A stretch of 49,890 bases of DNA from Lentisphaerota bacterium (lineage in GTDB: Bacteria > Verrucomicrobiota > Lentisphaeria > Victivallales > Victivallaceae): the NCBI GenBank assembly GCA_015061745.1, contig SUWB01000021.1, positions 1-49,890 on the forward strand, read 5' to 3'. Shown here one piece after another: positions 23,903 through 25,317 of the stretch. Within the stretch, counting starts at the first letter, position 1. Each line of letters starts with the position of its first letter. A program made the translations under genes and the position numbers. The notes beneath the pieces are model-generated. The model saw only the letters and a list, made by a program, of their open reading frames with translations, was not told the origin of the DNA and searched no databases.

Positions 23903-24030
23903 TTGCTGATTTTGCTGTTCCTGACAGCCCGGTCAATGGAACTCTGTCAACACTGACAGTGCGTACAGGAGTTATTGATTTCGTTCTTTAGAAAAACAAG
24001 TAAGAAATCCAGAAAAAAGGAGACCTGTTT

Positions 24031-25317
24031 ATGAAACAAGAAAAAATTTTCACCTTGATAGAACTTCTGGTTACTGTTGCACAACAGAACTGTCTTTTAA
24101 AATCAAAAAGCAACACATCCTTACGCCCGGCAGGGCGCACTTCACGTTTGCCGCAGGCAAACTCTTCGCACCTTCACATCTTCACTCAATCAGCGTTCAG
24201 GTTGATTGAACTTCTTGTGAGTACTACTTGTCAAATAGGTGTTTTGCCGTTGTATCTCTTCAAAAAAACAATCAGAAAAATGCCTTATAATGCTTGCAAA
24301 GCAAGTGCTTCATACACCAACGGTGTGCTTCATATTTGCCGAAGGCAAATGCTTCATACGGTGAAACCGTGCTTCACTCAATCAGCGTTCACGCTGATTG
24401 AACTATTGGTAAGCAAAACTTGTCAAATATGTGTTTATACTTTGCGAAAAATTGCCTCTTGCCTTAATATTTGCCATTGCAATCCTGCCAAATGCGGGAT
24501 TGTCGGTTTTGCAAATGCAAAAACGGCAATCCACCAAAAGTTTTTGGCAAGGATGGATGGGGCCCGGGGAAGGAAGGGAGAACCTTTTTTCAAAAAGGGT
24601 TCCCTTCCTTCCCCGGCTCCTTTCACCTTGATAGAACTTCTTGTCGTTATTGCGATCATCGCTATTCTGGCGGCTATGCTTTTGCCCGCTTTGCAGCAGG
24701 CACGGGATCGGGCCAAAGGTATAGGGTGCATCAACAATCAAAAGCAGATAGGTGTGGCATTTCAGCAGTACAGCGGCGATAACAAGGACTATCTGCCCTA
24801 TTATAACGGAGCCAAAGAATATCGGGCAGAACGCTGGTTTCGCACCTGTGCCCCGTATTTGGGGATCGCTCTTACATCACCTTTCCCCAAGTTGTACCGG
24901 TGCGGGAGTGACAATAATACCGCCCGGGCCAAATATCTTTCTTATGCCCTCGACAATATCTATTTTTCTCCCAGCTATGTTGTCAATCAGGAAAATGGTT
25001 TCCGCAGGGACAAAGATCCTGCCACTGATACCTGGGTGCGGGCCAGAAAAATCAACAAACTTGCCTCTGTTACAAGATATGTCACTCTGGCTGACGGCGG
25101 CGTTGCTCCGGGAGCAAATTACTTCAACTGGGATAATGAAAAGGAAAATCTTGTTCTCGGCATTGTTCAGCATACAGGAAAAGGCAACTATACCCACGCC
25201 GACGGACACGTTTCAACGATGCAGATCCCTCTTGCGGCTCAACTGACCAAAGATAAGAGTTACGCCATTTATTTCTTTCCCGATGGTATAAAATTTGAAA
25301 CAGGCCCCATTTTCTGA
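24031..25317 (+). CDS. Pseudopilin with H-X9-DG signature and four prepilin motifs
   Basis: A 428-residue frame starting at ATG 24031 with AAGGAG upstream. A normal type II/IV pseudopilin begins at residue 198: FTLIELLV, then [20 protein letters not shown], the methylation site and long helix, followed by a globular domain ending with an H-X9-DG box ([14 protein letters not shown]), typical of Lentisphaerae and Planctomycetes. In front of it, in the same frame, FTLIELLV or a variant appears at residues 7, 56 and 120, none followed by a hydrophobic helix. The segments between are Cys-rich and unlike any protein, matching hairpin-rich DNA. Leader peptidase should use a motif joined to the full helix, so only the fourth looks functional. 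The first 197 residues may therefore be a long leader or an insertion tolerated in frame. Confidence 0.85.
24124..24401 (+). repeat. Array of small hairpins with GCTTCA spacers
   Basis: Two groups of short perfect palindromes. First group: CGCCC/GGGCG (24124-24137 region) and GTTTGCC-gca-GGCAAAC (24146-24162). Second group: CTTGC-aaa-GCAAG (24293), ACACC-aac-GGTGT (24314), ATTTGCC-gaa-GGCAAAT (24334) and ACGGT-gaa-ACCGT (24358), separated by GCTTCAT-like heptamers. A final 11-bp stem, TCAATCAGCGT/ACGCTGATTGA (24378-24401), has its right arm inside the third prepilin motif. Loops are three bases and stems differ in sequence, so this is repeated structure, not repeated sequence. Confidence 0.85.
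24564..24616 (+). repeat. Long perfect-type hairpin just before the functional prepilin motif
   Basis: CCGGGGAAGGAAGGGA and its complement TCCCTTCCTTCCCCGG flank a further pairing AGAACC/GGTT and A/T-rich centre. It ends six bases before the fourth motif (24622) and is translated as [16 protein letters not shown]. In mRNA it would be a strong barrier or a site hiding the region near a downstream start. Confidence 0.85.

Follow-up and report, generated by a model that had tools for sequence, protein, structure and literature searches.

Stacked in-frame cassettes at the prepilin codons of Lentisphaeria pseudopilin genes, probably spread as non-autonomous mobile elements

The window (the whole stretch of DNA that was analysed, 49,890 nucleotides) is contig C15 of the Lentisphaerota genome G000 (3.10 Mb, 75 contigs). 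It contains a pseudopilin gene in which three stacked cassettes (147, 192 and 234 bp) separate the start codon from the hydrophobic helix. The full host protein scores 38.6 bits for PF07963 and 24.0 bits for PF07596, both above cut-off, and PF07963 reaches 21.1 against a cut-off of 21.2 when the protein is scored from the last motif onward. The features of the locus are as follows.

24031..25317, + strand: pseudopilin gene with N_methyl (PF07963) and DUF1559/SBP_bac_10 (PF07596) domains, 428 aa including the inserts
24017..24022, + strand: AAGGAG, a Shine-Dalgarno-like site read from the sequence, 8 nt 5' of the ATG at 24031
24049..24071, + strand: motif 1, FTLIELLV codons through GT, the gene's own copy in our model (5' copies elsewhere are gene-specific)
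24072..24218, + strand: cassette of type B, 147 bp, whose 3' end is its own motif copy FRLIELLV (24196-24218)
24186..24209, + strand: inverted arms at the end of cassette B, imperfect here, with the motif codons as 3' arm
24219..24410, + strand: cassette of type D, 192 bp, an array of small hairpins spaced by GCTTCATA, with its own motif copy (24388-24410) at the end
24302..24379, - strand: array of hairpins within cassette D, with a weak resemblance to Rfam Gut-1 RNA (23.2 bits against a gathering score of 50)
24378..24401, + strand: terminal hairpin of cassette D, TCAATCAGCG-TTCA-CGCTGATTGA, its 3' arm within the motif codons
24411..24644, + strand: cassette of type A, 234 bp, with its own motif copy (24622-24644) at the end
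24548..24634 (approximate), + strand: long terminal hairpin of cassette A in the MFE and centroid structures, its 3' arm entering the TTCACCTTG motif codons
24645..25317, + strand: host gene again, from the wobble of the last Val codon according to boundary comparisons, with helix and mature pseudopilin

The first-pass annotation had seen FTLIELLV codons at four starts (24049, 24196, 24388 and 24622); all four starts were recovered, while the second motif reads FRLIELLV (AGG). The spacings of 147, 192 and 234 bp, all divisible by three and all in one 428-aa frame, were found as described, and so were the exact 21-bp repeat at both ends (24048 and 24621), the Cys-rich translation of the insert and the hydrophobic helix (VIAIIAIL) that follows the last motif only. 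The 65-bp inner repeat is present (24180-24244 and 24372-24436), but its copies are 85% identical and thus inexact. Besides, CTTCACTCAATCAGCGTTCA (20 nt) occurs 2 times in the window against 0.02 expected from shuffles, and the insert folds 8 SD better than its shuffles. What had been taken for a single cassette with inner motif copies turned out to be three stacked cassettes of different kinds. Of the motif copies assigned to both cassette ends, the 3' one is indeed borne by the cassette, while the 5' one is the host gene's; the right end of the first motif (24049..24071) could have been exchanged.

The region 24030-24660 of the window has at least 91 matches in its own genome, with 40 of 110 candidates scored and the second strand of a palindrome included in the count. 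A degenerate pattern of the FTLIELLV codons finds 155 sites in G000 (0 for the reversed control), and PF07963 has 136 matches there. Among the G000 loci fetched, we counted 97 distinct pseudopilin genes with the helix, in line with the many such genes that had been supposed. One motif is contained in 47 of them, two in 37, three in 12 and four in one, that is, 50 of the 97 have two to four FTLIELLV motifs, in a set chosen as ORFs with the motif pattern and hence biased. Searched by DNA BLAST, cassette DNA lies 5' of the helix in 61 G000 genes, while 27 of the 97, all single-motif (27 of 47), are free of any trace of a cassette, of a short hairpin prefix or of a cut start. A tandem set of paralogs in G000 includes an empty motif with a hairpin prefix as well as filled motifs.

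G000 has 64 cassettes between recognised motifs (A 37, BC 16, D 7, E 4). Loci from other genomes hold 65, a set that is biased because many of these loci were chosen for matching. The types vary in sequence, and their length from motif start to motif start ranges from 108 to 264 bp. When a recognised 5' motif is not demanded, type A amounts to 47 in G000, a census again biased to ORFs with the motif pattern and leaving out one false regex match (the L009 leader); 39 of these have the standard full form and the remaining 8 are shortened, rearranged or cut at contig ends. A query free of FTLIELLV gave 137 confirmed loci, and 77 of the 80 listed were parsed (all but L228, L273 and L274): the motif lies directly 3' of the cassette in 62 (61 by the strict pattern, plus L270) and the contig ends there in 15. 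The cassettes thus occur beside FTLIELLV codons in G000 and in its relatives, as had been predicted for a mobile cassette that lands at these codons and keeps the frame. Outside pseudopilin motifs we found only two hairpin arrays (L139 and L142) and one candidate hairpin match (L120, genome G048), and of 31 pattern matches in viral contigs 0 were confirmed.

With a 24-aa query of the shared cassette start, matches were obtained in 30 of the 197 genomes of the class, spanning 8 genera, two families and one order, and were most numerous in G000 and G013 (43 each). Matches to type A longer than 180 nt among 100 relatives were found in G012 only, as two contig-end pieces, with at most 7 candidates scored per genome. 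In a named collection, the records that bear cassettes are MAGs of Lentisphaeria (Lentisphaerae), and many carry a sheep, roe deer or yak gut label.

Several side observations belong here. L139 (G000:C37:480-1020) and L142 (G000:C26:28060-28400) are arrays of small hairpins with GCTTCATA/ATGAAGC spacers, like cassette D, and both lie directly 3' of tRNA genes. The array on C37 is upstream of a 23S_rRNA_IVP (PF05635) ORF, and the L139 array scores about 30-32 bits against Rfam Gut-1 RNA (gathering score 50). Near-identical tandem 147-bp cassettes are located beside an assembly gap (N) at L073 (G000:C19:39290-39743). The genomes are MAGs with contigs frequently broken within cassettes, and contigs of G000 and G012 often start or end there (e.g. 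L022, L098, L102, L103, L106, L114, L145), so the repeats seem to break assemblies and the true copy numbers are probably higher.

To compare occupancy between relatives, we took the 16 G000 genes with a match of at least 350 bp in the loci fetched from G012 and G013, which represent part of the pseudopilins of those genomes. There are 15 reciprocal best pairs with G012 or G013, and the cassette content differs in 12. Representative genes are listed below.

L009: type A in G000, none in the G012 ortholog (76% identity over 1.5 kb)
L039: two B cassettes in G000, none in the ortholog
L102 (cut by the contig start): ends in A, none in the ortholog
L021: A in G000, C in the ortholog
L045: short prefix in G000, two C in the ortholog
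Window gene: B, D and A in G000, D alone in G013
L083: empty in both genomes
L004: type A common to both genomes
L079: paired from flanking sequence only

The relatives lacking the insert with which the first-pass annotation had proposed a comparison are therefore at hand, as empty or differently filled sites, and neither of the two outcomes that it had named as contrary to a mobile cassette was observed. At L004, which is 96% identical between G000 (C71) and G012 (C133 and C12, two contig ends), a 177-bp C cassette is present in G000 only, where it follows the host motif and precedes the type A that both genomes have. The other G000/G012 pseudopilin pairs compared are about 67-76% identical, against about 96% at L004, which suggests that this locus may have been transferred recently with its type A cassette on board. 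At the level of sequence, then, orthologs differ in occupancy while the gene stays in frame, the last motif remains intact and host sequence resumes immediately after it.

Each cassette starts directly behind the FTLIELL codons of its host gene, and its end is formed by a copy of these codons that it carries itself, so that the upstream motif is gene-specific, the downstream motif is linked to the cassette, and host sequence begins from the last Val wobble. In aligned copies, type A mostly starts with (A/G)AGCAAAACTTGTCAAAT, and its 3' motif is mostly TTCACCTTGAT(A/C)GAACTTCT(T/G)GT, beyond which the codons of the host vary as much as those of free genes. The wobble entropy of aligned type A is about 0.8-1.6 bits in the 5' motif, whereas in the 3' motif it is near 0 in the left half and 0-1.0 in the right half, and then becomes high again. 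We compared 97 cassettes whose nearest cassette relative reaches at least 90% identity, likewise drawn from ORFs with the motif pattern and biased in that way. Their 3' motif matches the one of this relative in 0.92 of cases at wobble 11 (0.64 for random pairs) and in 0.85 at wobble 20 (0.68), while from position 23 through the next 66 nt the agreement is about that of random pairs. Agreement at 11 and 20 but not from 23 places the return of host sequence at about the last Val wobble. The shuffling of N-termini that the first-pass annotation had thought possible is thus not what the cassettes bring about: a long leader is added, the part with motif and helix is kept, and host sequence resumes directly.

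The same comparison bears on the idea that spread occurred solely by duplication of pseudopilin genes that already carried cassettes, followed by divergence. Pseudopilins are numerous, some stand in tandem, and the near-identical tandem cassettes of L073 could be read in this way; nevertheless the downstream host sequences of the nearest cassette relatives are no more alike than those of random pairs, and 5' motifs and leaders differ. Agreement that ends at position 23 argues against gene duplication as the route of spread, so we rejected it as very improbable.

Landing is specific, as far as the sequences tell, and the motif stands at the cassette 3' end. Position 17 has no excess agreement with the nearest cassette relative and the right ends of the 5' and 3' copies are weakly alike, indicating that the exact junction may vary. 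Tested position by position for a target-site duplication (in a set with 63 own genes), no single position was significant. Joint tests of the 5' against the 3' copies gave a weak correlation (p=0.0025 pooled over genomes), and the likeness at the right end, when split, had p=0.07 (own single cassettes), 0.008 (own cassettes) and 0.02, for which reason we do not claim a strict absence of target duplication. Host motifs with a cassette are slightly nearer to the motif of that cassette (A, p=0.09; BC, p=0.03). These signals of guidance by homology are weak, and the 3' boundary is sharper than free homologous exchange predicts, which favours a specific cut. Typical MITEs have terminal inverted repeats and a target site duplication; the cassette ends in the printed examples are not mutual inverted repeats.

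A perfect stem of at least 7 bp with its 3' arm inside the motif codons was found at 118 of 354 motif sites. In the common stem TCAATCAGCG/CGCTGATTGA, one pair is A-T in 90 cases, changed on both sides in 15, broken in 7 and of another kind in 6. The hairpin of type A is longer and imperfect but follows the same plan, and the short hairpin of F type (pattern with at most 2 mismatches) lies directly 5' of a motif at 9 of 9 distinct G000 sites. From the hairpin foot to the junction the distance depends on the type (about 9, 14 or 17 nt). That cassettes of different types have this plan in common suggests a role of the hairpin in movement or in the RNA. Many Rfam matches to microRNA families were dismissed; they fall short of the gathering scores and arise from a single long hairpin.

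If the RNA were what matters, the cassettes might be kept as regulatory hairpins or attenuators of pilin expression, with mobility incidental. We consider this improbable. The hairpins are strong, and the 15 two-sided changes in one pair of the terminal hairpin, beside 90 A-T and 7 broken, look like covariation, which may be inherited with cassette subfamilies instead. Sequences differ widely between types, 27 of the 97 own genes do without any trace, and cassette content differs freely between orthologs.

If movement is what matters, a trans-acting single-strand transposase of the IS200/IS605 or REP-RAYT type could insert cassettes 3' of a target motif, the cassette 3' end being a similar cleavage motif beside a hairpin. 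Such a mechanism is unlikely, although it would fit the insertion 3' of the motif, the motif again at the 3' end of the element, the terminal hairpin, the sharp 3' boundary and the lack of a clear target duplication. Against it, the Y1 transposase is represented by two C-terminal fragments in G000 (a 91.6% complete MAG) and by none in G012, a weak piece of evidence as MAGs are incomplete, and its presence in the genus does not track cassette number. Moreover, the spacing between hairpin foot and junction depends on the cassette type, whereas the subterminal hairpins of such elements stand at a fixed distance from the cleavage sites, and the wobble bases of the target vary widely at the landing sites.

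The reading frame was examined on the DNA BLAST sets, the only ones in which cassettes were found irrespective of frame. Counted by distinct gene (loci to L278, without L113 and L129, which repeat the window), an open frame leads through the cassettes to the helix in 60 of the 61 own genes and in 91 of the 91 from other genomes; of these open genes, 5 own and 15 other are cut at the start of the stretch. The sole exception, L073, adjoins the assembly gap and its frame is unsure. Besides, 58 own and 35 other BLAST-found stretches are not followed by a helix; 9 own and 30 other of these are within 130 nt of the end of the stretch. Among the remaining 49 own ones, 2 are L139 and the other 47 were taken for the type-A palindrome met on its second strand. 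The remaining 5 from other genomes comprise L114, L117 and L144, read as that second strand too, L246, which enters another repeat near its end, and L120 (G048). At L202, at a contig end, a stop lies just 3' of the restored motif. L115, L116 and L118 were considered as broken genes and rejected; they are cut by the ends of stretches.

Variants within cassettes are nonsynonymous and synonymous in 300 and 109 cases, where 290 and 107 are expected. No real stop occurs where 17 are expected, in a variant set drawn from ORFs with the motif pattern, a selection that itself excludes stops, forces multiples of three and favours intact last motifs; the 5 variants scored as stop are an artefact of changing the consensus one position at a time. 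The 17 different spacings (108 to 264), also from a set found as ORFs, are all multiples of three. In L082 one stretch is in another frame and the whole remains open, the words of the other frame matching an ORF. A start codon with a Shine-Dalgarno-like site precedes the first motif in 42 of 49 multi-motif and 35 of 39 single-motif genes. Among multi-motif genes, all 50 own ones and 60 of 61 from other genomes have an intact last motif, and the first is intact in 41 of 50 and 58 of 61, under a search pattern that favours intact motifs and most of all the last. We considered and rejected a translation start inside the cassette, at the type-A ATG (ARMDG); this ATG is lost in L066 and there is none near the printed BC ends.

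Open frames, neutrality of the amino acids and absent stops together indicate that the cassettes seem to be read through while their content is immaterial. Such variation is what is expected of sequence that ribosomes would pass and that is then discarded or ignored. One match to an A24 prepilin peptidase was found in G000. Prepilin peptidase substrates usually have Gly at -1. In G000, Gly precedes the last motif in 4 of the 47 single-motif genes and in none of the 50 multi-motif ones, and the window gene has Pro. Since most of these genes have another residue at this place, cleavage of the leader is unsure and the insert may stay as a cytoplasmic tail.

Excision between two motif copies would give back a normal gene, so the insert might be spliced out of the RNA or the protein as a mini-intron or intein. 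We regard this as scarcely credible: the frame is kept and stops are avoided, which RNA splicing makes unnecessary, no intron family was among the matches of the Rfam search, and inteins are longer than these cassettes. A group II intron or retroelement was rejected as well, as there is no intron match and no reverse transcriptase (PF00078) match in G000, G012 or G013.

Our preferred reading, to which we give a probability of roughly 70%, is that these are non-autonomous, motif-guided mobile cassettes that spread among the about 100 paralogous pseudopilin genes of these Lentisphaeria and are tolerated in pilin leaders. A new copy would enter just 3' of FTLIELL(GT) codons, and its 3' end would bring these codons again, with a hairpin in front that uses part of them as its 3' arm; because a fresh copy of the codons is carried along, the gene would stay readable. 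Ribosomes would then translate the insert into a longer leader, lying on the cytoplasmic face of the membrane helix, and the leader would be removed by prepilin peptidase or left dangling. Cut off or dangling, the insert would be under hardly any selection other than that against stops and frameshifts. With less confidence, we infer that the motif itself may guide the copying, by strand annealing or template switching between paralogs with the aid of the hairpin, which would need no dedicated recombinase; of the two kinds of enzyme looked for, Y1 transposase was seen as fragments only and reverse transcriptase not at all, and a dedicated enzyme is less likely than guidance by the motif.

The closest known kind are Rickettsia palindromic elements, which are described as short palindromic repeats of about 150 bp lying in frame within bacterial protein genes (PMC10969869). 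The cassettes are likewise short, multicopy and palindromic, in frame inside genes. The Rickettsia elements are in unrelated genes, whereas the cassettes keep to a single gene family, in which they occupy and rebuild one codon motif; amino-acid neutrality with stop avoidance is reported here for the cassettes. Palindromic repeats in coding sequence, with horizontal distribution, have also been described (PMC2996958). The cassettes are similar to them in being palindromic repeats inside coding sequence, but those repeats, which go by the name of PARCEL, build repeat proteins, while the cassettes form a leader and have a fixed landing site.

IS200/IS605 and REP/RAYT elements have a hairpin near the end and insert 3' of a motif with no target duplication. 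The cassettes share with them the target motif in the 5' flank and a like motif at the 3' end, with the reservation of the weak 5'/3' likeness; they differ in that no intact transposase was found in G000 or G012, the hairpin distance is variable, and the landing site is a codon motif with variable wobbles. Integron cassettes are stackable too, and their 3' end has a hairpin-forming recombination site. Here, in contrast, there are no cassette genes, some 60 scattered genes are involved instead of one array, and the GTTRRRY core is absent at the junctions in the printed examples. Inteins and introns in conserved codons are selfish DNA hidden at a conserved functional motif; the cassettes seem to be read through, and thus hidden by position instead of by splicing.

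In the open-access literature, we found no account of repeats tied to one codon motif that they rebuild. In-frame palindromic repeats are already known from Rickettsia, and there is a fair chance that these cassettes are a new class. A bolder and tentative version, with the odds moderately against it, is a new class of mobile element that would parasitise a protein-sorting leader: it would pair degenerately with the prepilin codons, regenerate them at its 3' end by the motif-containing hairpin, stack repeatedly and spread through the paralog family by an undescribed system, leader processing serving as removal at the protein level.

In conclusion, selfish DNA within genes normally does harm if splicing does not remove it, and these cassettes seem to have a third way, which is to land before the motif that defines the start of the working protein and to rebuild that motif, in what is apparently the dispensable front end of the protein. 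This would account for the long Cys-rich leaders of Lentisphaeria pilin-like proteins, whose annotated N-termini are not to be trusted. With some 60 cassette-bearing genes in one genome, the family is a natural test bed for the motif-guided spread of DNA.
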